IMG/VR virus record: IMGVR_UViG_3300017708_000291
Location: 1-26,976 of that record
Length of the DNA: 26,976 nucleotides
Strand: one strand, 5' to 3'
Source of the DNA: a virus
The notes beneath the pieces are model-generated. The model did no database searches, was not told where the DNA came from, and saw nothing but the letters and a program-made list of their open reading frames with translations. A program made the translations under genes and the position numbers. Of this stretch, positions 11,345-26,972 are shown one piece after another. Position 1 is the stretch's first letter. The number at the start of each line of letters is the position of its first letter.

Positions 11345-11573
11345 AACAATAAATGACCTTGTTAATAATCCAGCACATTATAACCAAGGCAAAATAGAAT
11401 GTATTGATTCTATTGAAGCTATGCTAACTAAAGAAGAGTTTATAGGTTATCTGCGTGGTAACTCTCATAAATATAGATGGCGATTTACTTATAAAAACGG
11501 TATCGAAGATTTAAAAAAAGCAGAGTGGTATGAAAATAAATTAATAAAAGTATTAGAGGAAACAAATGAGTGA
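11334..11573 (+). CDS. DUF3310 protein, 79 aa
   Basis: The signature is plain: VNNPAHYNQGKIECIDSIEA, then MLTKEEFIGYLRGNSHKYRW, then a run matching R-x-x-x-KNGxEDLKKAEWYxxxL. DUF3310 proteins occur widely in T7-like and other phages, often near nucleotide-metabolism genes. In T7 the same kind of domain is part of gp1.7, a nucleotide kinase, but here only the short domain is present and no kinase activity is shown. It overlaps the endonuclease end by 11 bases and the nrdA start by 8, which fits co-expression with dNTP synthesis. Confidence 0.9.
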   Translation: MKYKTINDLVNNPAHYNQGKIECIDSIEAMLTKEEFIGYLRGNSHKYRWRFTYKNGIEDLKKAEWYENKLIKVLEETNE

Positions 11574-13458
11574 TAAAAAAGGAGAACACCCTTACTTAGG
11601 AATCATAATAAATTATGATAGAGATAAAAAATTAGATAAGTTTAGTTTAGATACGCTTCAAGATAGATACTTATGGCAGAATGAAACTTCGCCACAAGAA
11701 GCATTCGCTAGAGCTTCTATATTTGTTTCTACTTTTAAAGAAGAAACCGACTTTGATATGGCTCAAAGAATTTATAACTATGTTTCTAATCTTTGGTTTA
11801 TGTTTTCTACCCCTATTCTTTCTAATGGTGGTACTACTAGAGGCTTACCTATTAGTTGTTTCTTAAACTATGTACCAGATAATCGTGAAGGTTTATCTAG
11901 CCACTATGATGAAAACATTTGGTTAGCTAGTTCTGGTGGTGGTATTGGTGGTTACTGGGGAGATATTAGAAGTGATGGTATACCTACAAGTAATGGTAGT
12001 AAATCTACTGGCTCAATACCTTTTATGAAAGTAGTAGACTCTCAGATGTTAGCCTTCAATCAAGGTGTTACTAGAAGAGGTAGCTACGCTGCTTACATGG
12101 ATATATCTCATCCAGAGATTGAAGAGTTTATGGTAATGAGAAAAGAATCCGGTGGCGATGTAAATAGAAAATGTTTGAACTTACATAATGGAGTTAACAT
12201 AACTAATGCTTTCTTAACTGCTGTAGAAGAAGATGATGATTGGCGATTGATTGACCCAAAAACAAACGAAGCTGTTAAGATTATAAAAGCTAGAGAACTC
12301 TGGTCTAAACTATTAGATGCCAGAGCAGAAACTGGAGAGCCTTACATTGTCAATATAGATAACTGTAACGATGCTCTACCACAAGGACAAAAAGATTTAG
12401 GATTAGAGGTAAAACAAAGTAACTTATGTTCAGAGATAACCTTACCTACTAATGACGAGAGAACTGCAGTATGTTGTTTGTCAAGTGTTAACCTTGAACA
12501 CTTTGATGAATGGTCTAAAGATGATAAATTTATAGATGATTTAGTTACTATGCTTGACAATGTACTAGAACACTTTATTGAAAATGCAGTCGATTTAAAT
12601 TCACTTGGAGGTTATAATGCAAATTATGAAAGATTTAAAAAACACATTAAAGAAGGTAAAGAAGGCTTTACAAAAGCTGCTTATTCAGCCTATCGTGAAA
12701 GGTCTATTGGTCTTGGAGCAATGGGTTTTCACTCTTATCTACAAAATCAAAACATTTCCTTTGAGGGAATCTTCTCGACTGGAATCAACTATAAATTATT
12801 TAAGTTCATCAAAGGAGCTGCTGTTCTTGCATCTAGAAGACTTGCTGTATTACGGGGGGAAGCTCCTGATATTTCTAATTCTGGTCTTAGGAATTGTCAT
12901 CTCCTTGCTGTTGCACCTAATGCTAGTTCCAGTATTATTTGTGGGGGAACTTCTCCGTCCATCGAGCCTATCAGGGCTAACGTCTTCACTCACAAAACGC
13001 TATCTGGAAGCTACAAAGTTAGAAATAAAAACCTCGAAAAACTCATCAACAAAAAAGTAACTGACCCTAAAAAGCGAAAGAAAGTTTGGCAAGATATTAG
13101 TGATAATCGTGGGTCAATACAAGAGTTAAAGTTATTTACAAAAGAAGAAAAAGAAATATTTAAAACCGCAGATGAGATAAATCAAATCTGGGTTGTCGAA
13201 CATGCATATAAGCGACAAGAGTTTATATGTCAAAGTCAAAGTGTTAATCTATTTTTTATCTTACCTGATTCAACTCAGAATCAAGAACAACATAATGAAT
13301 ACTTACAGTATGTCAGTGATGTTCATTGGTACGGTGCTAATAAATTAAAATCACTTTACTATTTTAGGTCTGATGCTGCTAAAGCTGCAGAGAATGTTAA
13401 CATTAAAGTTCCACGAATTAAGTTAGATGAAGTGGAATGTATTGCTTGTGAGGGATAA
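11566..13458 (+). CDS. nrdA: Class I ribonucleotide reductase, large (alpha) subunit
   Basis: The 630-aa protein reduces ribonucleotides to dNTP precursors. The active-site set is intact: Cys98 (PISCFLNY), Asn286, Cys288 and Glu290 (SNLCSE), Cys303/Cys304, the radical-path Tyr598-Tyr599 (LKSLYYF) and the C-terminal CIAC pair (Cys625, Cys628) for reduction by thioredoxin or glutaredoxin. It is ~130 aa shorter than E. coli NrdA because the N-terminal ATP-cone is absent, which predicts no dATP feedback shut-off (inference). The ribosome binding site is GAGGAAA, overlapping the DUF3310 gene. Codons for residues ~396-495 (12751-13050) are unlike the rest of the gene: C-ending and GGG/AGG/CTC codons dominate there. 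A zinc-ribbon gene and nrdB follow. Confidence 0.97.
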   Translation: MSDKKGEHPYLGIIINYDRDKKLDKFSLDTLQDRYLWQNETSPQEAFARASIFVSTFKEETDFDMAQRIYNYVSNLWFMFSTPILSNGGTTRGLPISCFLNYVPDNREGLSSHYDENIWLASSGGGIGGYWGDIRSDGIPTSNGSKSTGSIPFMKVVDSQMLAFNQGVTRRGSYAAYMDISHPEIEEFMVMRKESGGDVNRKCLNLHNGVNITNAFLTAVEEDDDWRLIDPKTNEAVKIIKARELWSKLLDARAETGEPYIVNIDNCNDALPQGQKDLGLEVKQSNLCSEITLPTNDERTAVCCLSSVNLEHFDEWSKDDKFIDDLVTMLDNVLEHFIENAVDLNSLGGYNANYERFKKHIKEGKEGFTKAAYSAYRERSIGLGAMGFHSYLQNQNISFEGIFSTGINYKLFKFIKGAAVLASRRLAVLRGEAPDISNSGLRNCHLLAVAPNASSSIICGGTSPSIEPIRANVFTHKTLSGSYKVRNKNLEKLINKKVTDPKKRKKVWQDISDNRGSIQELKLFTKEEKEIFKTADEINQIWVVEHAYKRQEFICQSQSVNLFFILPDSTQNQEQHNEYLQYVSDVHWYGANKLKSLYYFRSDAAKAAENVNIKVPRIKLDEVECIACEG

Positions 13459-13459
13459 T

Positions 13460-13627
13460 ATGAAATGTTGGCACTGTAGTACAGAATTAATTTGGGGTGG
13501 AGACCACGATATTGAAGAAGAAAACGAAGATTTTATTATGGAAACTAATTTAAGTTGTCCTAACTGTAAAACTTTTGTTTTGGTTTATTTACCAAAGGAG
13601 GAAAAAAATGAGCTTATTAAAAACTAG
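13460..13627 (+). CDS. Small zinc-ribbon protein between nrdA and nrdB, 55 aa
   Basis: The product has two Cys pairs: MKCWHCSTELIWGGDHD near the start and LSCPNCKTFVLVYLP later, i.e. CxxC...CxxC with an acidic stretch between. This is a compact zinc ribbon. The frame is open further upstream to 13427, but GAGGG (13450-13454) and the start of the CxxC unit favour the ATG at 13460. The ribosome binding site of nrdB lies inside its end, with a 20-base overlap. I recall similar small CWHC...CPNC proteins from other phages. The function is unknown; its place inside the RNR operon suggests a link to RNR, perhaps in regulation or metal supply (inference). Confidence 0.8.
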   Translation: MKCWHCSTELIWGGDHDIEEENEDFIMETNLSCPNCKTFVLVYLPKEEKNELIKN

Positions 13628-14600
13628 AGATTACTACAAACCATTTGACTACAGTTGGATGTTTGAGTATTACGATTTACAAAACAGAATGCACTGGCAT
13701 CCAATGTCAGTACCACTACATACCGATGTAAAAGATTGGAATGAAAGATTAACTGATTCAGAAAAGAATCTTTTAGTTCAGATATTTAGATTGTTTACTC
13801 AATCAGATGTAGATGTTGCTTCAGGATATGTAGAAAAGTATATGCAACTTTTCAAACTTCCAGAAGCTAGAATGATGATGTTGTCCTTTGGTAACATGGA
13901 AGCAATTCATCAACATGCCTACAGTTTACTATTAGATACTGTTGGTATGCCTGAAATGGAGTATAAAGCTTTTGCCGAATACGAAGAAATGTCTAACAAG
14001 CATGAGTACATTACAGACCTTAAAACTATTAAGTCTGATAAAAGGACTATCGCTAAAGCTTTAGCCGTTTATTCAGCCTTTACGGAAGGCTTACAGCTAT
14101 TCAGTAGCTTCGCTATACTCATGAACTTTCAAAGATATGGAAAAATGAAAGGCATGTGTCAGATTGTGGCTTATTCTATTAAAGATGAAAGCTTACATGT
14201 AGAAGCAATGACTAAATTATTTAGAGAATTTATCAAAGAAAATCTAGACATCTGGACAGATGACTTTAAAAAAGAAATCTATCAGATATGTAGAGAGATG
14301 GTAAAACTAGAAGAAAAGTTCTTGGACTTAGTATTTGAAATGGGAGATATAGAAGGATTAACTAAAGAAGAAATGTATGCGTACAACAAATACATTGCTG
14401 ATAGAAGGTTATTACAGTTAGGACTTAAACCTAACTTTAATCAGAAAGATAATCCTTTAGGTTGGTTAGATGATGTGTTAGGAGTAGAGCATCAAAACTT
14501 TTTTGAAGGTAGAGCTACCTCATATCAAAAAGCCGGACTGAGAGGTGATTATGGACAATTAACCTTTACAGGATTTAACAATGAAAACGAAACGAAATGA
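13608..14600 (+). CDS. nrdB: Class I ribonucleotide reductase, small (beta) subunit
   Basis: The 330-aa protein holds the diiron/tyrosyl radical needed by NrdA. Metal ligands are in place: Asp67 (TQSDVDV), Glu98 and His101 with radical Tyr105 (MEAIHQHAY), Glu160 (FTEGLQ), and Glu194 and His197 (KDESLH). The Tyr is kept, so it is a class Ia/Ib-type rather than a Phe-containing Ic-type subunit. I chose the ATG at 13608 because AAAGGAGG lies 5 bases upstream; the open frame to 13575 would need a TTG without a binding site. The last 20 bases overlap the next small gene. No separate glutaredoxin or thioredoxin gene is seen in the window. Confidence 0.97.
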   Translation: MSLLKTRDYYKPFDYSWMFEYYDLQNRMHWHPMSVPLHTDVKDWNERLTDSEKNLLVQIFRLFTQSDVDVASGYVEKYMQLFKLPEARMMMLSFGNMEAIHQHAYSLLLDTVGMPEMEYKAFAEYEEMSNKHEYITDLKTIKSDKRTIAKALAVYSAFTEGLQLFSSFAILMNFQRYGKMKGMCQIVAYSIKDESLHVEAMTKLFREFIKENLDIWTDDFKKEIYQICREMVKLEEKFLDLVFEMGDIEGLTKEEMYAYNKYIADRRLLQLGLKPNFNQKDNPLGWLDDVLGVEHQNFFEGRATSYQKAGLRGDYGQLTFTGFNNENETK

Positions 14601-15905: not shown

Positions 15906-16271
15906 TTAGTAGCTCCAAACTCTAGGAGTAGCTCTAGAGTTATCCATATCTAAATGAATAAATCTTGAAGCACGGTCTCCTTTCTGTGCGACTCCAATTC
16001 TGTTAATACCCTCTTCGACAGCTATTTTTATAAGAGTCATAGCTTGTTCGCCACTAACCAATATATCCATAGCCTTACCTGTTGTATGAGCACCCGGATT
16101 ATCCTTTGCAGCTTCTATAGGGTGCTCAGTGGAACGATAGGCACTGCTTACTTTAAAAGGAAAACCACAGCGTTCCCTAATTCTTTCTATGGTCTGCATA
16201 AATGCCCAGTCCATATCACACTGACCAGTATGCCTACACTTTAATTCGTCTTCGTTAAAATATTTATACAT
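15906..16271 (-). CDS. M15A-type D-Ala-D-Ala peptidase, endolysin candidate
   Basis: The 121-aa zinc peptidase has the M15 fold signature: VSSAYRSTEH (residues 41-50), then GAHTTGKAMDI with ligands His62 and Asp69, and FIHLDMD with the third ligand His106. Such enzymes cut peptide cross-links of peptidoglycan. With no signal peptide or membrane anchor, it needs the holin encoded downstream to reach the wall. It starts in a TAATG overlap with the 1556-aa gene. Unlike T7, which uses an amidase (gp3.5), this phage seems to use a peptidase for lysis. It could instead be a virion-associated enzyme, given its upstream neighbour. Confidence 0.9.
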   Translation of the reverse strand: MYKYFNEDELKCRHTGQCDMDWAFMQTIERIRERCGFPFKVSSAYRSTEHPIEAAKDNPGAHTTGKAMDILVSGEQAMTLIKIAVEEGINRIGVAQKGDRASRFIHLDMDNSRATPRVWSY

Positions 16272-19200
16272 TATTTTTCAAAGTCTTTTGTTTTTTCTTT
16301 GTCATACTTTTCTAAGTAATCTTCAAAATCTTTTCTTATTTTTCCTATATTTTTAAATAATTCATAAGAGATAATTCTTTTATCGTCTTCATATAAATTA
16401 TATAGACTGGTTCTAAATTCAATATCTTCTCTTAACTTGTCATCTTTTAAATCATCATATTCGTATGAATGAGCTAGTGCTTCTTCAATTATTGGTTTTA
16501 ATTGTTTTCCTCTGCGTCCTGCAAAGTCTGGAGCTTCTTTTTTTAAATATTTACTTTTATAAAAATTATCAAAATATCCTGTTTTATCTGCAGCCCTGTG
16601 CACAAACTCATGTTTTTGAGTTCCTACTTTGTTAGCTCCTATACTTCCTAGTACGTCATCTAAATCTTTAAATGCTACCACATCTTTTTCAGAATCATAA
16701 AAACCTAGTTGTTGTATATTACTAATTCTGTCAGGTCCTTCAACACCAATCTGTTTACTTGAAGGTATAAGTCCACTCCCTTCTGCTGGAAAAGGTCGCA
16801 TACCATACTTATCAATTAAAGCATTACCCGTGCTTTTAATAAATCTAGGGTCAGTATAACCTTCTCCCATTAGCATATTCATTTGAGCTTCTTTGTTAAC
16901 TAATTTCATGTTAGCTCGTTTTTGATATTCTTCTAATCTTTTGTCGTATTCTTTTTCATTAGAAAAACCACCGTCCTTTAAATTTTGTCTAGGATTGTCA
17001 TTTACAAAAGGGTTTACGCCCTTCTCTAAGCTTTCTCTGTAATGCTTTCTAGCATTCATGTTCATTTCTTTGCCTTCTTTAGTTTTAAATATATCTTCTT
17101 TTGTGTAATCAAAGTTTTTTATAAAATCTATTTGTTTGTCTGTGGTATATGGATTTATTAATGGATAAAATCCTTCTTCAGTATCTGGTTTACCTACAGA
17201 AAATTCTGTCATTATTTCTCCAGTAACATTATTTTTAATTCTACCTTTCCAACCTATCTGAGATTTTTTAGTTCCGTCTAGTCTTAGAGAGTTATCTACT
17301 TCTTTTCCTTCAGCAAAACTTAGTCGTTCTTCTGCATCTTGAAAAGCTGTTCCTGCTTGTTGATTATATGGAAGACCAGTAAATTTATCTATTCTTTCAT
17401 CTGGCTCATCTGGAGCTTGAGGCACTGCTACTTCTCCTCCAGTTTTAAATTCATCTCTAGGTCTTAAAAATTCAGGAATAGTAGTGCCTAATTCTTCATC
17501 AATATTTCTCATAAAGTCTTTAACATTTTTAGTTGCATTGTCACCAAATAAATCATAAGCAGCCGAGCCGGGTAAGTTTCTACCAATAAGACCAAACAAG
17601 CCACTACCATATCTAATTTCATCAATTATATCTTGCGGTAATGGACCTGCAAAAGACTTACCAAGACCTACTAATAAATTATCATTGTATTTTATTTCTT
17701 TAGCAAATCTAGAACCGTAATCAAATGGTCCAAAACCACCCCATCTTCTGATAGCATTAAATATAACTTCACTATCTTCTGCAATTCTATTTAAATTTTG
17801 TTTATTTTTTATATTCTTTTTAAGTGCACGAACTTGTTTTTCTACTTCATTTGGCAGACCTTTAGCTGTTAGTATTTCTTTAAAGTCTAAATTATCTTCA
17901 TCAATACTTTTACCTTTACTTCTAATATAATCACCAACAACTGCAACGGCTGTCATTGTCATAGCAGCTCCAAAAGTTCTTGGTGAAGTTAAAAAAGCTC
18001 TTTTAACATCTCCTTTTGCTAAATCAATAACACCCATATCTTTAACAAATCTTTTCAAAACAGTATTTGTAAACACAGTAGGATAACCAGCAAATTGCAT
18101 AAGCAGTTGTCCTGCAGGTGAACTAAACCAAAGAGGTCTGTTAGCTTCTGCAGTACTTGGGTTTAGAATAACTTCTTTAGTAAATCTATTAGCTCCACCT
18201 AAAACAGACTCTCTATAAAAATTAGCTTGACTTAAATTATCTTGACCTTTAAAAGTTTTTTTACTTGCTTTATTTATATCAAATTGAAAATTATCATTTA
18301 AAGAGTTACGATACCAAGTTGCAGCTTTTTCAGGATTTATACCTAATTCCTTTAATTGTCCTTCTAAATATTTTACGTTAGCTGAATTTAATTTTTTTAT
18401 ACCACTATAATGTTCAAATAATTTTTCAGAGTTCCTAGTTATTGCTCTTTTGCCACTTGTAAATGAAGCTAATTGTACAGTTCTAGTCCATTGGTCTAGT
18501 AAGTTCATTTTAAAGAAAGCATTTTGTCCTGACCTAGCCCACTGATTTGTTAAAGCATCTCCAGTCAAACCTTCAAGTCTATCCATGACTGCTTGTTCTA
18601 AAGCTAATCCAGTTTCATATAGTTCAAACCAAGCATCATTATCTAAATCATTTATATTAAGATTTGCTCCAGTTTCTTTTGAAATCTTTTTACCTACTTT
18701 AGTTTCTGCTACAGTTTTACTTATTCCAGTTCCTTTTGTTTTAGCTCTAAAAACTCCTCTAGCTATAAAACCTAAACCCCTATCTATTTCTCTTACTAAA
18801 TTTTTACCAAGTGCAGCAGTCATATCTCTAACAGCTTGTGGAGAATCTGTTAATCCTGCTCTTTGTAATAAAATTATAGGCTCTGAAATACTAGAAATAG
18901 TAGCTAGAGGTAAGTGAGCCATTTGTTGAATAAGTCTACCCCAATTAGATGCTTCTTGAAAAAATTTATTTTTAAATTGAGTTCCTGCATAATCTAAACC
19001 AGTAATTCTTTGATGAGTTTCTCTAATTTTTTCTAAAGCTTTTTGGACTTGCTCCTCAGAAAAACCAGCATCTTTTAATTCATAATAAATACCAGTTTTA
19101 TTTTCAGTATCTTTTATAAACTTTGTATCAAAATCAGCTACTGTTCTGCCAAAAAAATCTGTTCTAGTTACTGTTTGTGCTGCACTGGTGTAATAATTTC

Positions 19201-20941
19201 TTAATACATGCTCTACATCGGTTTCTAGATACGGTAGTAAGTCTTCATCTTTTATATTACTAAATACTCTATTTTGCAACCAAGTTTGACCGCCACCTCG
19301 ACCACCATCCATTCTTACTTCAATAGGTCTAATTTTATTATCAAGCATACCGTCAACAATAACACCTGCTTTTATTTCTTTAGCTAATTTTAAATTACCA
19401 TTGGCTTCTTTTAAAAAGTCTCTACCAAAAAGTTCTCTATCACTTGCAACAAGATTTTCTTCAACTCCTTCAATTACTCCTACACCTTCTACAGTCTCTG
19501 TAGTTTTTTTTTTTTGAACTTTATTTATTGGATTAGCATGACCGCTTTTAATTAATAATTTTTCAAACTTATCTCTCCCTTCACTAATTGCAGTAAAGTT
19601 AAACATTCTTGGAAAATAGTTAGGTACTTCTTGAGCTGCATCAAAAAGCCCAACTTCTAAACCTTCATCAAACATTTTTTTGTTTAAATCCCTTATCTCT
19701 TTACCAGCTTCTTTTACATAATCAGGAATGGCTTCTGTTTTATTTGTTGTTGGATTTAAAAATGTTCTTTTTCTAGGATTAGTAATATAAGAAAGTAATG
19801 CTATATTATCCTTTTCATCAATCTTTCCAGACCAACCTCGTCTGTAAAGTTTGTTAAGACTTCTGTCTAATCTAGCTAAATAAAAACCCATTCTTCTGCC
19901 TTTAGCTTCACCATAACTTTGCGTAAGAACTCTGGCAGTATCTCCACCAAACATAGACTCTCCAAAATCATATCTAAAATGTTGCATTAGTTTAGTTAAA
20001 GTTTCAGATGATTTGGCTTTTTCAATAAACTTAGTAGTTGATTTACCAAATAATGCACCAACAACATTTTCGTCTATAATCTCTTTTGCTCTAGAAAGTT
20101 TAGAAGGACTTTTAACTTCGAAAGCTTTATGTACTTCAAACTCATCTACAATATCATCTACTGATTTGCCTCTTATAGTTTTACGAATATCATCTTCATT
20201 AGCATATTTATTAAGTTTATTTAAATACTTATAACCGTTTAATAAACCAAGACCAGCTCCAGCACCTAATCCGATTCCTCCACCTAACGCTGTAGCTGAA
20301 GCAATACTTTTCCAATCTTTGCCTTCAGGTCTTACATCTAATGTAACATCTTGGTCTTGTAAAAAATATTCATGTGCTCCATTCCATGTTGCACCTTCTG
20401 CTGCTCCAAAAATAGCAGGTCTTTTAGCAGCTTCTAAGCCTACTTTACCTAATTTTGAAGCACTGTATTTTTTAAGTCCTTGTTTTACTAACTCTCCTGC
20501 AGCAGTTCTTGCAGCCAAAGAAGTTCCCATAGAAGGTATAGCAAATAAAGCAGTAACTACATTTAAAGGGTCAGCAACCATATCAATAGCAAAATCTTTT
20601 GCAAATCCTGCCCATTCTTTTGAGCCTGTTAAATCAGCTTTAGAATATTTATCTCTTAAATAAATATAATCTTGTTTTGTTTGGTCACTCCAGTTTCCAA
20701 TTTCAGAAGCTCTTTGCATAGCCGAAGTTAAACTGTAATCAGAATCTCTTAAATATTCTATTATATTGTCGTCTTCACCTATAGTTTCTAAAAATCTTTC
20801 AGCTCTTGTATTAAACTCTCTGTCTTGTTGAAGTTGAGTCATGCTATAAGTTTTACCTAATTTAGATTTGTATTCAGTACCATAGGTTTTACTAGCTTTA
20901 TTAAGACTATCTTGTAGATTAAAATTAAACTCTTCTTTCAT
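16271..20941 (-). CDS. Giant internal-virion / DNA-ejection protein with C-terminal metallopeptidase motif, 1556 aa
   Basis: The length and order (large protein just before the lysis genes) match the internal core proteins of T7-like phages, which enter the cell with the DNA. A hydrophobic stretch lies at about residues 117-147 and a Gly-rich, membrane-active-looking stretch at 212-236. From ~1180 there is RIDKFTGLPYNQQAGTAF, then WKGRIKNNVTGE and TEFSVG, which I recall from the C-termini of marine podovirus virion proteins. Near the end, HEFVH (His1444, Glu1445, His1448) and EEALAH (Glu1486/1487) form a gluzincin-like zinc peptidase site. No lytic transglycosylase motif is obvious. A run of 12 A occurs at codon ~476. 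The ribosome binding site is weak (AGAA). Confidence 0.85.
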   Translation of the reverse strand: MKEEFNFNLQDSLNKASKTYGTEYKSKLGKTYSMTQLQQDREFNTRAERFLETIGEDDNIIEYLRDSDYSLTSAMQRASEIGNWSDQTKQDYIYLRDKYSKADLTGSKEWAGFAKDFAIDMVADPLNVVTALFAIPSMGTSLAARTAAGELVKQGLKKYSASKLGKVGLEAAKRPAIFGAAEGATWNGAHEYFLQDQDVTLDVRPEGKDWKSIASATALGGGIGLGAGAGLGLLNGYKYLNKLNKYANEDDIRKTIRGKSVDDIVDEFEVHKAFEVKSPSKLSRAKEIIDENVVGALFGKSTTKFIEKAKSSETLTKLMQHFRYDFGESMFGGDTARVLTQSYGEAKGRRMGFYLARLDRSLNKLYRRGWSGKIDEKDNIALLSYITNPRKRTFLNPTTNKTEAIPDYVKEAGKEIRDLNKKMFDEGLEVGLFDAAQEVPNYFPRMFNFTAISEGRDKFEKLLIKSGHANPINKVQKKKTTETVEGVGVIEGVEENLVASDRELFGRDFLKEANGNLKLAKEIKAGVIVDGMLDNKIRPIEVRMDGGRGGGQTWLQNRVFSNIKDEDLLPYLETDVEHVLRNYYTSAAQTVTRTDFFGRTVADFDTKFIKDTENKTGIYYELKDAGFSEEQVQKALEKIRETHQRITGLDYAGTQFKNKFFQEASNWGRLIQQMAHLPLATISSISEPIILLQRAGLTDSPQAVRDMTAALGKNLVREIDRGLGFIARGVFRAKTKGTGISKTVAETKVGKKISKETGANLNINDLDNDAWFELYETGLALEQAVMDRLEGLTGDALTNQWARSGQNAFFKMNLLDQWTRTVQLASFTSGKRAITRNSEKLFEHYSGIKKLNSANVKYLEGQLKELGINPEKAATWYRNSLNDNFQFDINKASKKTFKGQDNLSQANFYRESVLGGANRFTKEVILNPSTAEANRPLWFSSPAGQLLMQFAGYPTVFTNTVLKRFVKDMGVIDLAKGDVKRAFLTSPRTFGAAMTMTAVAVVGDYIRSKGKSIDEDNLDFKEILTAKGLPNEVEKQVRALKKNIKNKQNLNRIAEDSEVIFNAIRRWGGFGPFDYGSRFAKEIKYNDNLLVGLGKSFAGPLPQDIIDEIRYGSGLFGLIGRNLPGSAAYDLFGDNATKNVKDFMRNIDEELGTTIPEFLRPRDEFKTGGEVAVPQAPDEPDERIDKFTGLPYNQQAGTAFQDAEERLSFAEGKEVDNSLRLDGTKKSQIGWKGRIKNNVTGEIMTEFSVGKPDTEEGFYPLINPYTTDKQIDFIKNFDYTKEDIFKTKEGKEMNMNARKHYRESLEKGVNPFVNDNPRQNLKDGGFSNEKEYDKRLEEYQKRANMKLVNKEAQMNMLMGEGYTDPRFIKSTGNALIDKYGMRPFPAEGSGLIPSSKQIGVEGPDRISNIQQLGFYDSEKDVVAFKDLDDVLGSIGANKVGTQKHEFVHRAADKTGYFDNFYKSKYLKKEAPDFAGRRGKQLKPIIEEALAHSYEYDDLKDDKLREDIEFRTSLYNLYEDDKRIISYELFKNIGKIRKDFEDYLEKYDKEKTKDFEK

Positions 20942-20945
20942 TATT

Positions 20946-22868
20946 TTATTCTGTTCTATTTAATAGACTTTGTTGCTGTAGAAGTTCTTCTAATTGTTTT
21001 TCTAAACTATCTCTAGTAGAACTTCCTTCCTGATAAATTTGAATATTTTCTTGTAGTTTACCTATTTTATCTTGTAATTGTTCTTCTTTAGTTCCAAATA
21101 AAAAACTTAAAAATCCACCTTCGTCATCCTCAACTTCTATTTCAATAGGTTTTGGTTCTGGTAATGAATCTACAATTTCTTGTAATTCTGGAAAAACTTG
21201 TCCTGCTGCTTTTTCAAAGTCATCAAGAATAAGTTGTCCTTTGTCTTTAGTAATTTCACCTGCTCTACTTCCTCCTTTGATAAGACTTCCTTGATATTCT
21301 TCTGGAGGTTGAAATAAAAATTTAATAGCATCTCTATTTCTACTAATTTCATCTTGATTATTTATTTCTGATTTTCTTTCAACTAAATTATCTTGTTCAG
21401 TTACATTAAGTTTATAAAAGTCATCATTAACTAAAAGTTGATTTATTTTATTAATTTCTTCATTTTGAAATTTATCATATAAAGAAAATGCATCAGGAGC
21501 AACCTTATCTTGTTGCCTCATATAACCAGTTAATAAAATACTCATTTTTCCTTCAGAACTTAAACTACTTAAATCTTTTTTTGGAATATCATAAAAATAT
21601 CTATCTGTTCTAGGTTTGTTAAAAATTAAATTATTTTTATCATGAGTTATAATACCAGCATCTAAAAAAGCTTGAGTAGCTTGTTGAACAGCTAAGTCAT
21701 TGTCCATATTTAATTTTTCTTGATATGGTGCTATGAAACTACTTAAAGAATCTCTTAGAGCATCAGCACCATTTACATTAAGAGTTACCATTTCTCCTGT
21801 TTTAGGATTATATTCTTTAACTACCATTTTATTTAACGCACCGGGTCTAAAAAGGTAAAAAGCATCTTCTTGAAAAACATCCTGACTATTTGGTTGAGAA
21901 TCTATTAACTGACCATTTTCTACTTTAAAATGATTTGTTGGTCTAATATTAAAACTTAAATCTCTATATTCATTTATACGACCTCCCATTGCTGACTTAA
22001 TATGTTTATCAATTTTTTCTTTTCTTTTTACATTTGTAGCAGCTAAACTCATATTTTGGTCTTCTACTTGTTCAATAAGCTCTTCAAAAGTTCTACCATC
22101 AGTTATATTGGTTGTATCAGTTAAAACTTCTGCACCTCTTTTGACTTCATCAATTTTTTTAATTGTTTCAGGATTATCTAATACAACATCTGTTTTAACT
22201 ATTGCAGCATTTTTTTTACCGTGATTTTTTTCAATAGATTGTCCTATTAGTTCAAACAAATTGCCCGGCTGGTCTTTAGCAGCTTTTAGTTGTTCTGCAA
22301 ATTTATTTCTAGTATCATCGGCTAATGCTGTATAAGTAGGTGTACTAATATATCTATTTTGAGAAAAATTATTGTATGTATTAGTTAGTTCACCAAGTTC
22401 AGATTCTACATAATTTAAATAAACATCATTAAATTCAGCATCTGCTTGTCCTCTAGCTTGTTCTACACTACCGTATTTAGTTTTAAAAAGTGATTCATTA
22501 AAAACATCTTTTTTAAAATTCTCTTTAGCAATTCCTTCTAAATAGTCTTTACCGTCAGTATTTAATTTTCCGTCTGTAAACTTACCTCCAGCATTTGCAA
22601 ACTTTTGATAATCATTTCTATAAGATGTATTATCTGCCCAAGAAATTCTATCATCGCCTAATGCTTCATTTATATTATTTTGAATACCAGTAGCCGCTTC
22701 TCGTTTAGCTCCCGGTAAAGCTTGAAAATAACTTATACCAAAATCAAAAAGTGAACCTATCAGCAAATCTTTTATAAAATCTCCGGTGCTTTGTTCATTA
22801 TCATAAACACCTTGTTTTTGTAAAATTTGTTGGACTGTAGGATTTTTAAAAAATGAATCGTCTGACAT
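20946..22868 (-). CDS. Probable internal virion protein, 640 aa
   Basis: This mostly helical, soluble protein begins MSDDSFFKNPTVQQILQKQG. It has a short hydrophobic stretch at ~residues 32-52 (LLIGSLFDFGISYFQALPGA). Near the end are FLSFLFGTKEEQLQDKIGKL and a coiled coil rich in Leu/Gln/Glu (to LLQQQSLLNRTE). I recognise no enzyme motif. Its place between the 247-aa and 1556-aa genes fits a T7 gp15-type core or ejection protein. The start has GAGGTG 6 bases upstream and lies in a TAATG overlap with the preceding gene. Confidence 0.75.
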   Translation of the reverse strand: MSDDSFFKNPTVQQILQKQGVYDNEQSTGDFIKDLLIGSLFDFGISYFQALPGAKREAATGIQNNINEALGDDRISWADNTSYRNDYQKFANAGGKFTDGKLNTDGKDYLEGIAKENFKKDVFNESLFKTKYGSVEQARGQADAEFNDVYLNYVESELGELTNTYNNFSQNRYISTPTYTALADDTRNKFAEQLKAAKDQPGNLFELIGQSIEKNHGKKNAAIVKTDVVLDNPETIKKIDEVKRGAEVLTDTTNITDGRTFEELIEQVEDQNMSLAATNVKRKEKIDKHIKSAMGGRINEYRDLSFNIRPTNHFKVENGQLIDSQPNSQDVFQEDAFYLFRPGALNKMVVKEYNPKTGEMVTLNVNGADALRDSLSSFIAPYQEKLNMDNDLAVQQATQAFLDAGIITHDKNNLIFNKPRTDRYFYDIPKKDLSSLSSEGKMSILLTGYMRQQDKVAPDAFSLYDKFQNEEINKINQLLVNDDFYKLNVTEQDNLVERKSEINNQDEISRNRDAIKFLFQPPEEYQGSLIKGGSRAGEITKDKGQLILDDFEKAAGQVFPELQEIVDSLPEPKPIEIEVEDDEGGFLSFLFGTKEEQLQDKIGKLQENIQIYQEGSSTRDSLEKQLEELLQQQSLLNRTE

Positions 22869-23611
22869 TATACACCTCGTTCTAATAAACTTTTAGCTAG
22901 TTTAGTTTGTTCAGAAAAATTTTCTGGCATAGCTTTTAAATTTGGTTCTTTAGCCATGACTGTTTTTCTAATATCTTTAATACTAGAAAGAGTTTCTTGT
23001 TCTTTTTCTTTTGGATTATTATCTAAATCATTTATTTTTAAATTTTCATCTAGTCTATAATTTATTGGACCTGCAGCTTCACCAATATTCATTACTGAAT
23101 AAAAAACAGGCTCATATAACATTAACATAACATCAACCGAATATTTACCTTCATGGTAATCATTATATAAAATTAATTCAGTAACATTACCTACACTTGC
23201 TCCTTTCTGTAAAGACTGTGCAACTGCTTTAATACTTTCAGGTTGAAAAAGTCTTTGTGTTACATCTTCTAAAGCATCTTTAGGATTAGCAAATAGTGGC
23301 GGTCTTTCCCAAGGTTTAGCACTGTCAGGATTTTCTGTTAATGATTGTCCGGGAATAGCTTTAGGTTTACTTTGCATCCTCATAAATTCTTTAAGTTCTT
23401 CTTCACTAGGCTCAGAATCATCTATTTCAATTCTTTCTTTATCCTCATCAATCTGCATACCCATAGAAGCAAAAACTTTGTCCATAGAAGTACCGTTATC
23501 TTCTGCGAACTCCATAATATCTTTAGCTGTATCAGTTAAACTAGTTCTATTAAAACTTTGAAGTTCTTCTAAAGTTGGTTGTTTTTCTTGTGTGTCTTTT
23601 TTTTCTGCCAT
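22868..23611 (-). CDS. Acidic virion-associated protein, 247 aa, unknown
   Basis: I chose the ATG at 23611 (MAEKKDTQEKQPTLEELQSF). The open frame continues four codons to a TTG, but that has no binding site, whereas GGAT lies about 6 bases before the ATG. The N-terminal half is acidic and probably disordered (DKERIEIDDSEPSEEELKEF). The middle contains a Pro-rich linker and a helical segment (TQRLFQPESIKAVAQSLQKG). There are no enzyme motifs. Position in the late operon suggests a structural or chaperone-like role for the internal core. Confidence 0.7.
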   Translation of the reverse strand: MAEKKDTQEKQPTLEELQSFNRTSLTDTAKDIMEFAEDNGTSMDKVFASMGMQIDEDKERIEIDDSEPSEEELKEFMRMQSKPKAIPGQSLTENPDSAKPWERPPLFANPKDALEDVTQRLFQPESIKAVAQSLQKGASVGNVTELILYNDYHEGKYSVDVMLMLYEPVFYSVMNIGEAAGPINYRLDENLKINDLDNNPKEKEQETLSSIKDIRKTVMAKEPNLKAMPENFSEQTKLAKSLLERGV

Positions 23612-23632
23612 ATCTATATCCAATAATAATTA

Positions 23633-24325
23633 TTAACTTACATAAGGATTTACTGTAGAGCCGCCTATTCCAAAATTTAAAGTTTCCATAGAAGGTCTAT
23701 CATATCTTTGACCAATTCCTTGTCTAGAAAATCTAGGACTTCCGGGTCTAAAAGGTGCATCTGGAGTTCCTGCTAAAGCAGACATTGCTTCCGAAGTACC
23801 TAAAGTTGTAGCACCTCCATAAGCTGCTGTAGAACCTGCTGCTAATCCTGCACTAGAAGCTGCTGCTGATGTACTACCTGCAGCTAATAAAGAAGGATTA
23901 ACAGGACCAACAAAACCAGCAGCTAAAGACGATGAACCTGTTGCTGCTAATCCTGAAGTAGCTGCTGTTAGCTGAGTTGCTGATACTCCAGCTTTAGCTG
24001 CTGCCATCGCTGCTGCATTACCTGTAGCTGTTCCAGCAGTAAGTGCTGAAGTAGCTGCTGTTAATTCTGTGGCAGTTACTCCTGCTGCTGCTGCTGAACT
24101 TGCTGCATAAGAACTAGCACCTATACCAGTAGCTCCTGCAAAACCACTAGCCCAACCAGCTCCTGCCAGTGCCCCTCCGGTAAATACTAAACCTGTAATT
24201 AGTGCTGCAGTAAGTAAAGTCTTTTTGTGTTTTCTTAAAAATCTTTCTGTAGGTTTTAAGATTTTATTTTTAATTCCTTTAAAAACACTTTTTACTGGTT
24301 TAAATAAACTTTTAAATATTCCCAT
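23633..24325 (-). CDS. Ala/Gly/Ser/Thr-rich virion protein with membrane segment, 230 aa
   Basis: The N-terminus is a basic amphipathic helix (MGIFKSLFKPVKSVFKGIKN), followed by a membrane-like segment at about 37-58 (TLLTAALITGLVFTGG). Residues 59-190 are low-complexity Ala/Ser/Gly/Thr. They include two copies of an 18-residue unit, AGVTATELTAATSALTAG at 81-98 and AGVSATQLTAATSGLAAT at 112-129. The C-terminal 40 residues are different (FRPGSPRFSRQGIGQRYDRP). T7 gp14, another ejection protein, is also small and membrane-inserting, so a channel role is plausible but inferred. AAGGAG lies 8 bases before the ATG. Confidence 0.72.
   Translation of the reverse strand: MGIFKSLFKPVKSVFKGIKNKILKPTERFLRKHKKTLLTAALITGLVFTGGALAGAGWASGFAGATGIGASSYAASSAAAAGVTATELTAATSALTAGTATGNAAAMAAAKAGVSATQLTAATSGLAATGSSSLAAGFVGPVNPSLLAAGSTSAAASSAGLAAGSTAAYGGATTLGTSEAMSALAGTPDAPFRPGSPRFSRQGIGQRYDRPSMETLNFGIGGSTVNPYVS
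23939..24085 (-). repeat. Internal duplication in the Ala-rich protein gene
   Basis: The two 18-residue units AGVTATELTAATSALTAG and AGVSATQLTAATSGLAAT are encoded 93 bases apart (31 residues). They differ at five of 18 residues and their DNA has drifted. This is consistent with an old in-frame tandem duplication within the low-complexity region. Confidence 0.6.
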
Positions 24326-24348: not shown

Positions 24349-26721
24349 TTAAGCTCCGGTTTCATTTGAACCAATTATATCACTATAAAGATTTTCTGCT
24401 GCTCCAACTCCTGCTGAACCAGACATACTTCGAGCAAGACCTTTTAAAGATTCTTCACTTTTTACCCACTTACCACCTGCTTCTGTAGACATTGCTGTAG
24501 CAACTATATCAGCTTCTCTACTTCTTTCATTTTGATAAGCTTTCCAATCTCTGTCTGCTTTATCTCTCATTTCTTGCCAAATCATTGCATTAGCTTGAGA
24601 AGTGAGTCCAAACATATTTTGAGCATTTTGTTGATTAACTTGATTTTGAGCAGCAGTATCTGCTAAGTTAATTTGTCTTCGCCATTGAACATTAGCTTGT
24701 TCTATTTGTTGAGCTGCTCCAGTATTAAACTGTTCTCTTTGAAACTCTAACTGCGAGTTATGTAAATCTGTTTGTTGTAACATTTGTGCATTTGCAGTTG
24801 CTATAGCTACATCATTTTGAACTCGTCTAGCTTCAGAAGCATTTGCAGCAGAAGCATTAAATTGTTTTATAGCATTCATTTGTTGTGTATTTGAAATATC
24901 AATTCTAGTATTTAGTTCTGCTAAGAACTGCTGTGTTTGATTTTCAGTAGTAGCATTAAATTGTCTAGCTGCATTTACGGCTGCTTGATTAGATAACATT
25001 CTTTGTTGTTCTTGCTGTGAAGTTAAAACATTAGTTTGTTGTTCATTATTTAAATTAGTAATGTCCATTGTTAAAAAAGCTTTTGAGTTTTGAATAGCTC
25101 TCCTAGTATTTAAATCTGCTTCTGAAATATTTGCTTGAGACATTAATACTGCATTCTGTAAAATAGCTTGTTGGTCATTAGTAGCTTCAGTTAAACTAAC
25201 AGTTTGTAAGAATTTACTATTAGCTAAAGAAGTTTGTTGGTCAGCACTAAATTGTGCCAAGTCTAATTGAAAAACATTCTGTGCATTTTGTTGAGCTGTT
25301 TGTTGTCTAAACTGTGCATTTTGTAGAGCTACTCTAACTTCAGCTTCTCTTTCTTGTCCAACAGAAGTTTGTATAGCTTGAGCATTAGATTGTGCAATAG
25401 GTAAAGCACTTTGAATAATCGCATTAAATAAATTATCTCTACCTACACTTGAAGCACTTAATCCTCTTTCAGCTAATATTTGCTCAACACTATCAACTGC
25501 AGGTCTTGCCCAAGTAGGTATTTCATTATTTTCAATACCTTCTAATAGTTTACCCATTTGAGTACTTACTAATGCTTCTTGAGGTAATCCTTGAATAAGT
25601 CCTCTTTCTGTGTCTGTTAAATCTAATAAAGCACCTTCAAGAGCTTCTGGGTCATCTCCTAAAGTATTTATAGTAGCTTCAGATATACCAGCAGTTCTAA
25701 GTTGTTCTTTAGCTCTAGTAATTCTTCTAACACTTTGTCCAGTAACTTGTTGAGCTATTGCCATAGCATTAGGACTTAATGTACCAACAACTCTATTAGC
25801 TACTGCTCCCGGCTCTATACTAACATCTGCTCCTTCAATAGTTGGTACTCTATCTATTTGTAAAGTTTGTGCTATGCCTTCTGGAGAAAGTTGTCCTTGA
25901 GCTGCAGTAGTAGTTGGAGTTTGAGCAACTTGAGCAGCTTGTATACCCGTAGCTGTTAAAGGAGCAACTTGTTGTGCTTGAGTTCCATCAGCCATAAAAG
26001 CTGTTTCTTGTGTATCTGCAGAAATTTGTTGACCTGTTACAGGAGCAAGTTCTCCCATAGTCTGTAATGAAGCACCAGTAACCGGTATAGGATTACCTTG
26101 AGCATCTAATAATAAATTACCACTTGTGTCTCTTTGAAATCCTGCTCTTTCTATTTGAGATTTTTCAAACCCTTGCTCTAATATTTGAGGTGCTAATTGT
26201 GTAGCTCCTCCAGTAAATTGAAAATTATCTGTAACACTAGCATCCGGTGTACTCGTAGTTGCAAGTATTGGATTAGGGTTAGGGTCAATATATGTTGGAG
26301 CAGTTCCTGTACTAGGTGTATTATCTGCAGGATTAACACTATAAACTGGAGCTGGAGCTGGAGCTGGAGTTACTGAAGGTGTACTTTGTAATCCCGGAAT
26401 AACTCTTGGAGCTGTTTCTGGACTAGGGTCAGTAACAGGCTCAGTACTTACTGCAGGAGGCGGTGTAGTTTTAGTTTGCGGAATAGGAGGAATAGGAGAA
26501 ATAGGAGGAAAATTAAATTTTAATCCAGAAAAATCTATATTACCTAAATTAATATTACCAGCATTAGCAAGTTGTCTGCTAAAGTCAGCACCCATAGCCG
26601 CAGTCATACCACCGGGCATAAGTTTTACTCTTTCATGACCATGTTTAGAAACACTTCCACCTTTACTATAATCCATACGATTATCAGTAGTAGTTCTTGC
26701 TCTATTTTTATTCTTCTTCAT
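24349..26721 (-). CDS. Large fibrous virion protein with 11-residue repeats, 790 aa
   Basis: The N-terminus is basic (MKKNKNRARTTTDNRMDYSK) and followed by a Pro/Thr-rich, probably disordered stretch (residues ~70-165, e.g. PPISPIPPIPQT). A helical middle contains QGLPQEALVSTQMGKLLEGI. Residues 459-711 can be written as 23 uninterrupted 11-residue units (e.g. TNDQQAILQNA, VLMSQANISEA, NNEQQTNVLTS, QQMNAIKQFNA), very rich in Gln, Asn and Ala. Such hendecad repeats form long coiled-coil rods. It has no enzyme motif. A tail or internal-core rod or fibre are both possible. A near-consensus promoter lies directly before the ATG, and AAGG gives a modest binding site. Confidence 0.8.
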   Translation of the reverse strand: MKKNKNRARTTTDNRMDYSKGGSVSKHGHERVKLMPGGMTAAMGADFSRQLANAGNINLGNIDFSGLKFNFPPISPIPPIPQTKTTPPPAVSTEPVTDPSPETAPRVIPGLQSTPSVTPAPAPAPVYSVNPADNTPSTGTAPTYIDPNPNPILATTSTPDASVTDNFQFTGGATQLAPQILEQGFEKSQIERAGFQRDTSGNLLLDAQGNPIPVTGASLQTMGELAPVTGQQISADTQETAFMADGTQAQQVAPLTATGIQAAQVAQTPTTTAAQGQLSPEGIAQTLQIDRVPTIEGADVSIEPGAVANRVVGTLSPNAMAIAQQVTGQSVRRITRAKEQLRTAGISEATINTLGDDPEALEGALLDLTDTERGLIQGLPQEALVSTQMGKLLEGIENNEIPTWARPAVDSVEQILAERGLSASSVGRDNLFNAIIQSALPIAQSNAQAIQTSVGQEREAEVRVALQNAQFRQQTAQQNAQNVFQLDLAQFSADQQTSLANSKFLQTVSLTEATNDQQAILQNAVLMSQANISEADLNTRRAIQNSKAFLTMDITNLNNEQQTNVLTSQQEQQRMLSNQAAVNAARQFNATTENQTQQFLAELNTRIDISNTQQMNAIKQFNASAANASEARRVQNDVAIATANAQMLQQTDLHNSQLEFQREQFNTGAAQQIEQANVQWRRQINLADTAAQNQVNQQNAQNMFGLTSQANAMIWQEMRDKADRDWKAYQNERSREADIVATAMSTEAGGKWVKSEESLKGLARSMSGSAGVGAAENLYSDIIGSNETGA
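24589..25347 (-). repeat. 23 tandem 11-residue (hendecad) repeats
   Basis: Codons for residues 459-711 of the 790-aa protein divide exactly into 23 x 11 residues. Positions 7-9 tend to be hydrophobic and positions 10-11 are often NA, NS, EA or similar. Recurring words recur at multiples of 11: DQQ to DQQ is 22 residues, DQQ to EQQ 44, NSKFL to NSKAFL 44, QFNA to QFNA 33 and QFNA to QFNT 44. Confidence 0.75.
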
Positions 26722-26726
26722 AATCT

Positions 26727-26755
26727 ATTTTACCTTAATTCAAAGAGCTTGTCAA
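26727..26755 (-). promoter_or_regulatory. Sigma70-type promoter for the late (minus-strand) genes
   Basis: On the minus strand, TTGACA (26755-26750), a 17-base spacer and TAAAAT (26732-26727, 5 of 6 consensus bases) lie just upstream of the 790-aa gene, whose ATG follows 5 bases after the -10 box. The -35 box is inside the last codons of the upstream 80-aa gene. It matches the consensus better than any other site I found on either strand and suggests host sigma70 transcription of virion genes. Confidence 0.72.
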
Positions 26756-26972
26756 GCTTTTCGTCTAATTTATCTAGCCTATCTACTAAGTCTCTCATAA
26801 CTGCTCTGGACTCATTTTTTGTAACATAGTCTCTAGCTATTTCTTCTCTAGTTTTATTTAACAAAATATCAATACGTTTATTTTCTTGAGAGTTTTGTCG
26901 AATGTTATAGAGTATTGGAGCTAGGACTAATGTTATAAAAGCATTCCATATCAGGTATGAAGATAGTTCCAT
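26730..26972 (-). CDS. Small membrane protein with coiled coil, 80 aa or longer (holin-like)
   Basis: The first ATG in view is at 26972, only 4 bases from the window edge, so the true start may lie outside. A membrane segment (YLIWNAFITLVLAPILYNI, about 6-24) is followed by a charged coiled coil (NKRIDILLNKTREEIARDYV, then LVDRLDKLDEKLDKLFELR). This layout occurs in many small phage membrane proteins that are often called holins. It resembles the 94-aa protein near the other end of this arm in layout, though not clearly in sequence. Its end carries the -35 box of the promoter for the next gene. Confidence 0.7.
   Translation of the reverse strand: MELSSYLIWNAFITLVLAPILYNIRQNSQENKRIDILLNKTREEIARDYVTKNESRAVMRDLVDRLDKLDEKLDKLFELR

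Follow-up and report, generated by a model that had tools for sequence, protein, structure and literature searches.

The linear IMG/VR virus record analysed here, 26,976 bases long and referred to below as the window, contains a gene whose product carries 23 consecutive units of 11 residues. What holds such a repeat in register, and what does a protein built around it do for a phage? A preliminary description of the window had recognized the repeat, had read it as a right-handed or nearly straight coiled coil, and had suggested a fibre or a scaffold inside the virion. The repeat observation is confirmed, and it is stronger once homologues are compared. The gene and its parts are as follows.

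24349..26721, minus strand: gene for the 790-aa rod protein, a homologue of HMO-2011 phage1322_25 (open reading frame, tblastn relatives)
25612..26721, minus strand: residues 1-370, variable N-terminal region rich in Pro/Thr/Ala, probably disordered (alignment A1, Pro content, lengths)
25378..25584, minus strand: residues 380-448, conserved module V..Q...L....P.WA....RG...S.......PIAQ (A1, block HMM, AlphaFold)
24589..25347, minus strand: residues 459-711, rod of 23 x 11 residues (translation, period tests, anchor distance)
24502..24705, minus strand: residues 673-740, conserved C-terminal module QANVQWRR...W.E.RD (A1, block HMM, AlphaFold)

The eleven-residue repeat

The coordinates, strand and length first given for the rod are exact, its 23 units follow one another without a gap, and its translation contains no proline (and two glycines), as had been claimed. 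Direct reading of the units also bears out the reported spacing of recurring words: DQQ/EQQ occurs in units at 492, 514 and 558, which are 22 and 44 residues apart, NSK-FL recurs at 44 residues, and QFNA/QFNT occurs at 587, 620 and 664, which are 33 and 44 apart. Periodicity was assessed with a G statistic relating residue class to position modulo P, for P = 2-33 and against 500 shuffles. The rod scored z = 11.3 at P = 11, 8.7 at P = 22 and 6.5 at P = 33, with all other periods at or below 1.2, so that the 11-residue peak on which the repeat claim depended stands well clear of shuffled sequence. Self-identity reaches 0.19-0.21 at lags of 11, 22, 33, 44, 66, 77 and 88, against a mean of 0.10, and sliding windows confine the periodicity to approximately residues 430-715 of the 790. 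The register shared by the family begins at about residue 448, ahead of residue 459, and the weakest units are the first one or two (448-469). The Fourier analysis that the preliminary description had called for agrees: at 11/3 residues the power of Gln is 20 times the shuffled mean, that of Asn 9.6 times and that of Asp/Glu 10 times, and each of these peaks was matched by none of 4,000 shuffles. Hydrophobicity in the window's rod has no peak at 11/3 residues.

As controls for the period test, the phiX174 H protein returned period 11, P22 gp26 and T7 gp17 returned period 7, and P22 gp7, gp20 and gp16 and T7 gp14, gp15 and gp16 showed neither 7 nor 11 clearly. A weak period of 11 (z = 3.2) was also seen in residues 63-150 of H (L276:2931-3917), upstream of the tabulated H-tube hendecads. 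Other descriptions of the repeat were tried and rejected: a heptad coiled coil, because the 2/7 frequency in the Fourier analysis of the window's rod stands at chance; a purely DNA-level tandem array, because nucleotide identity between units is too low; a strictly 22-residue unit, because the family has odd as well as even unit numbers; and a Gln/Asn-rich beta-solenoid, because neither AlphaFold model contains a strand and Gly and Pro are almost absent.

A rule of eleven across HMO-2011-type phages

HMO-2011-type phages have been described as dominant and widely distributed among marine viruses (PMC9038755); the large conserved protein described here carries no name or function in them. Searching with tblastn, we found relatives in 27 phage records, all of them HMO-2011-type podoviruses or their kin, with hosts among Roseobacter, SAR11, SAR116, Vibrio, Aeromonas, Pseudoalteromonas and rhizobia. 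Homologues are present in HMO-2011 itself (phage1322_25) and in CRP, HTVC, CHOED, MQM1, Slicky01, phiM6 and Rhizobium phages, and nearly all are annotated 'hypothetical protein'; the homologue in ctYwJ313 (L018:7149-9740) is mislabelled 'huntingtin'. These named proteins are true homologues that share architecture, anchors and register with the window protein, and where measured their rods have 13-30 units.

A larger sample came from four IMG/VR scans and one GTDB scan, the latter with patterns built from an alignment narrower than the first one, and comprises at least 247 distinct proteins with both conserved modules among the matches listed. The block HMM of the PIAQ module matches about 270 ORFs. 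Architecture is constant throughout: after a variable Pro/Thr/Ala-rich N-terminus come a module that ends in PIAQ, then the rod, and finally a module that starts with QSNVQWRR. The window protein carries the PIAQ and QWRR modules in this order, by alignment A1 and block HMMs, and thus belongs to the HMO-2011-type rod family. Directly upstream of its gene lies an 80-aa ORF (26730-26972, minus strand) whose N-terminus is hydrophobic and whose charged C-terminus may be coiled; small ORFs occupy the matching place in many relatives.

Other collections added little. The window's rod protein has no match in PHROGs or Pfam, and seven homologues gave one marginal PHROG only; against PDB sequences, neither the protein nor the rod nor the family profile gave more than chance-level matches, and a PDB fold search with the better of our models, that of a 14-unit relative, returned nothing significant. 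A BFVD fold search matched three unnamed proteins significantly and otherwise gave helix noise; the three are apparently homologues, since the lengths 460 and 1021 correspond to those of CHOED and CRP-9. A plasmid search found no relative of the rod protein. Relatives in the GTDB scan sit solely on phage-looking contigs binned into bacterial MAGs. In one instance (L106-L109) contigs of equal length with an equal match sit in two unrelated MAGs, from Flavobacteriales and Neomarinimicrobiota, and are apparently misplaced phage.

The regularity of the family is seen most clearly between two anchor residues, P441 (25399-25401) inside the PIAQ module and N677 (24691-24693) inside the QWRR module. 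In the window protein they are 236 residues apart, or 21 x 11 + 5. The distance leaves the same remainder of 5 modulo 11 in 246 of 247 distinct homologues among the matches listed, as it did in the first alignment (19/19) and the first sample (97/98). The single exception (L032) has lost 4 residues, about one helical turn, in the first units, at the edge of the rod. Length itself is far from constant: rods among the matches listed range from 10 to 68 units and fall into 20 whole-unit length classes, the commonest counts being 20, 14, 21 and 38, and a tree of both modules requires at least 35 changes of unit number, an approximate figure given that the tree is short (~140 columns). Flanks obey no such rule: 177 distinct lengths occur on the N-terminal side of the anchors and 53 on the C-terminal side, and on both sides every remainder modulo 11 is represented. 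Proline is likewise partitioned, with one in 61,245 rod residues across the family against 7.0% in the N-terminal region. Rods of 14 units (e.g. L147, L150) exist in two arrangements; compared with one, the other is 22 residues longer in its first half and 22 shorter in its second, so that the total is the same.

Unit duplication probably supplies the length steps. One homologue (L003) holds two block copies 330 nt, or 10 units, apart that are 91% identical over 66 nt, and long rods cluster at 28, 38, 48, 58 and 68 units, neighbouring clusters differing by 10 units (110 residues); self-identity is raised where the lag is 5 or 10 units (L072 among those noted). In the window, nucleotide identity at unit lags is 0.35-0.43 against a background of 0.32, and the best 66-nt pair has a median identity of 0.61 across the family. 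The units of most members are thus too diverged at the DNA level for easy slippage, and the natural reading is that off-register variants have been removed by selection. We infer that the near-total lack of off-register indels needs purifying selection beyond duplication. A rod held to whole 11-residue steps is an unusually clean structural constraint to be legible from sequence, and it yields concrete predictions on face, barrel and register.

Helix faces and predicted structure

On a helical wheel of 11 residues per three turns, Gln centres at 6 degrees, apolar residues and Ala at 94 and 274 degrees, and Asn and acidic residues at 172-212 degrees. Expressed as family medians of power over variance (chance = 1), the first harmonic of Gln is 10.6, and for apolar residues plus Ala the second harmonic is 8.8 and the first 0.60, the second exceeding the first in 245 of 246 members. 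The window's rod taken alone shows the same strong Gln face, with the apolar second harmonic at 8.8x and the first at 0.1x. In a coiled coil of two to four strands a single apolar stripe would be expected, and in the family this stripe at 11/3 residues is at chance. Two apolar flanks with a polar inner face is the pattern of each helix in an alpha-helical barrel; a bifacial helix fits sheets or layered bundles as well as barrels.

Single-chain AlphaFold models were obtained for the C-terminal 417 residues of the window protein (40 homologues) and for the 14-unit relative L150 (23 sequences). In the former, two short helices are followed by helices at 425-551 and 560-704, with a mean pLDDT of 61.6 and a minimum around residues 502-562. 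In the latter, two short helices lead to one helix at 49-297, with a mean pLDDT of 82.7. The short helices are those predicted for the PIAQ module (residues 380-448), which run into the rod, and in the better model the helix runs on through the C-terminal module. The rod also has the continuous, proline-free 11-residue register of a hendecad helical rod, and it is predicted to be one continuous alpha-helix. At a helix rise of 0.15 nm per residue, the 253-residue rod of the window would measure about 38 nm, and the 533-753 residues of rods with 48-68 units would, if straight, reach about 79-112 nm.

The long hendecad rod first proposed is well supported by the family register, the near absence of proline and the AlphaFold models, but its simple one-stripe form is contradicted. 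The same split applies to the idea of a right-handed or nearly straight coiled coil: the period agrees with it, whereas the absence of an apolar first harmonic, together with the strong second harmonic and the Gln face, goes against the one-stripe version of it.

Gene neighbourhood and a possible role in DNA ejection

At the end of the structural module the family shares one order of genes: rod gene, small gene(s), a 251-aa family, a middle gene and a large gene. In the window these are:

23633..24325, minus strand: 230-aa Ala/Gly-rich gene, next downstream of the rod gene, small ejection-protein candidate (ORF, sequence, position)
22868..23623, minus strand: 251-aa gene with the motif IPG.SLT..P....PWE.PP (A3 family)
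20946..22868, minus strand: 640-aa gene, fast evolving, candidate middle ejection protein (synteny, alignment A2)
16271..20941, minus strand: 1556-aa gene, candidate large T7 gp16-like ejection protein (endolysin-like segment)

The 230-aa protein has a basic N-terminus and a hydrophobic segment, and matches no PHROGs or Pfam family. The 251-aa family, absent from Pfam and PHROGs, has 107 matches among the fetched loci; it occurs in the same phage groups, and nearly all relatives have it downstream of their rod gene. No family or PDB match was found for the 640-aa protein. In the 1556-aa protein, residues 768-1012 are endolysin-like (phrog_7348 at 1.6e-38), and relatives in its family match 'internal virion lysozyme motif' (phrog_2083) and Phage_lysozyme (PF00959), so the cluster closes, as podoviral ejection clusters do, with a large protein that bears a muralytic domain. 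Other members of this family bear different lysis domains, which suggests domain exchange. PDB searches with profiles of three downstream families found no match, and the cluster has no sequence match to known ejection proteins; the likeness lies in synteny and domains. Podoviral ejection proteins are ordered small, middle and large-with-enzyme (PMC8954989), and the clusters of T7 (gp14, gp15, gp16), P22 (gp7, gp20, gp16) and Sf6 (gp12) share this succession of small Ala-rich, middle and large enzyme-bearing proteins. The rod gene is an addition upstream of such a cluster, and its product resembles none of these proteins in sequence; those of T7 and P22 lack a clear period of 11. We infer from gene position that the rod protein belongs to the virion of an HMO-2011-type podovirus, since our literature search yielded no virion proteomics or structure for any family member and no prior description of the repeat.

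Helical tubes are known for Sf6 gp12 and T7 gp15, and the nearest parallel to the rod is the tube of phiX174 H (Microviridae, PDB 4JPP). Residues 151-271 of H form a decameric helical tube of 170 Å that starts with hendecads such as QKELTKMQLDN; of its 23 inward positions, 18 are occupied by Gln, Asn or Arg (PMC7354561). Like the rod, H has hendecads with recurring Gln (e.g. QKEIAEMQNET), a long helix and a Gln/Asn-rich face in hendecad register, which in H lines the DNA channel, and both return period 11 by the same test. When three H hendecads were slid along the family profile, the best register placed H Gln position 1 on rod Gln position e (permutation p = 0.03), a match that is suggestive only. 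The two also differ: H, from an ssDNA phage, combines 3-4 hendecads with 11 heptads, whereas the rods consist of 10-68 hendecads, lack heptads and belong to dsDNA podoviruses. PDB sequence searches gave no homology between rod and H, and there was no significant fold match. Sf6 gp12, for its part, forms a decameric channel of 25 Å whose stem accommodates the H tube (PMC4755594).

We favour, at a probability of roughly 0.4, a role for the rod protein as part of a Gln-lined DNA-ejection conduit assembled during ejection, a preference that follows from the Gln-lined hendecads of the H tube and the Sf6 gp12 decamer. A conserved two-helix head module, preceded by the variable Pro/Thr-rich tail, would lead into one continuous helix of 11-residue units at three turns per unit and then into the conserved helical end module. 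With two opposite faces apolar or Ala, one rich in Gln and one in Asn and acidic residues, copies of the helix most likely assemble, several at a time, into a side-by-side alpha-helical barrel, in which Gln side chains would point toward the lumen and Asn and acidic side chains would lie outside. The protein most likely exits the capsid together with those encoded just downstream, and the rod would form part of a conduit taking DNA across the envelope, much as the tube of phiX174 H does and as the ejection proteins of podoviruses do. Whole-unit changes would adjust rod length without rotating the faces, whereas any other change would disrupt the face pattern, which would explain the 11-residue rule. 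Such a conduit would show how short-tailed marine phages bridge the envelope, and would offer a naturally graded set of lengths for work on helical tubes that translocate DNA. Several points weigh against it: a rod of 48-68 units seems longer than simply spanning the envelope would call for, the resemblance to H is one of pattern and finds no echo in profile or fold, and duplication of whole repeats could alone yield steps of 11.

It is also possible, though we consider it doubtful, that the ejected Gln-lined dsDNA conduit is length-adjustable in equal-geometry steps of 11 from 10 to 68 units, with duplication, often of 10-unit blocks, tuning the count to the host envelope or capsid. If true, this would join the principle of the H tube with tape-measure-like unit counting in tailed phages.

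Such counting is known from tape measure proteins, in which Belcaid et al. 2011 described variable numbers of 11-aa units with W/F markers (PMC3271669), units being duplicated and lost as in the rod. One might therefore expect the rod to be a virion-internal tape or scaffold, extended in the head or along the portal axis, with the unit count setting a length. The quantised rod length, the recurrent Phe of QFNA units, which recalls the W/F markers, and the two arrangements that reach the same 14-unit total, as if total length mattered, all fit this reading. Yet tape measure proteins belong to long-tailed phages. RCA phages are podoviruses with short tails (PMC6918029), and the hosts of the rod, being short-tailed podoviruses, have no long tail to measure. 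Rod length has no obvious relation to genome length (13 units in 68 kb, 28 units in 54 kb, 14 units in 53 kb), and none to downstream gene lengths was evident on listing. The rod is Gln/Asn/Ala-rich, no homology to a tape measure family was found in PHROGs or Pfam, and the Gln stripe is left without explanation. We regard a tape or scaffold as unlikely.

An external fibre or needle, with the rod as the stalk of a trimeric or other coiled-coil structure on the tail, appears improbable. In HMO-2011 and CRP phages the rod gene comes directly after tail-fibre or tail-related genes, long rods of varying length are common among fibres, and the fibre and needle proteins among our controls (P22 gp26, T7 gp17) are strongly periodic too, at period 7. 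But every helix of a classical trimer has to carry a single apolar stripe, a harmonic that the family lacks; a short conserved helical module closes the rod, with no C-terminal domain of receptor-binding type; and the protein is conserved with the downstream ejection-like genes, not with fibres. Gene context and precedents point more towards an ejection conduit than towards the fibre or internal scaffold of the preliminary description.

Finally, it is very unlikely that the 11-residue rule is a mere by-product of whole-unit duplication and deletion by unequal recombination, with a functionally unconstrained register: such duplication makes steps of 11 without selection, and recent block copies and the favoured counts of long rods show it at work, but the units of most members have diverged at the DNA level, small off-register indels are almost nil in the 247 proteins (among the matches listed) while the flanks vary freely, and prolines are excluded from the rod as well.

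Two further observations concern annotation in these phages. A gene in the structural region of CHOED (L007:1708-3267) is mislabelled as a nonribosomal peptide synthetase. The window encodes a two-subunit ribonucleotide reductase (11566-13458 and 13575-14600, both plus strand), whereas HMO-2011 is annotated with a cobalamin-dependent one.
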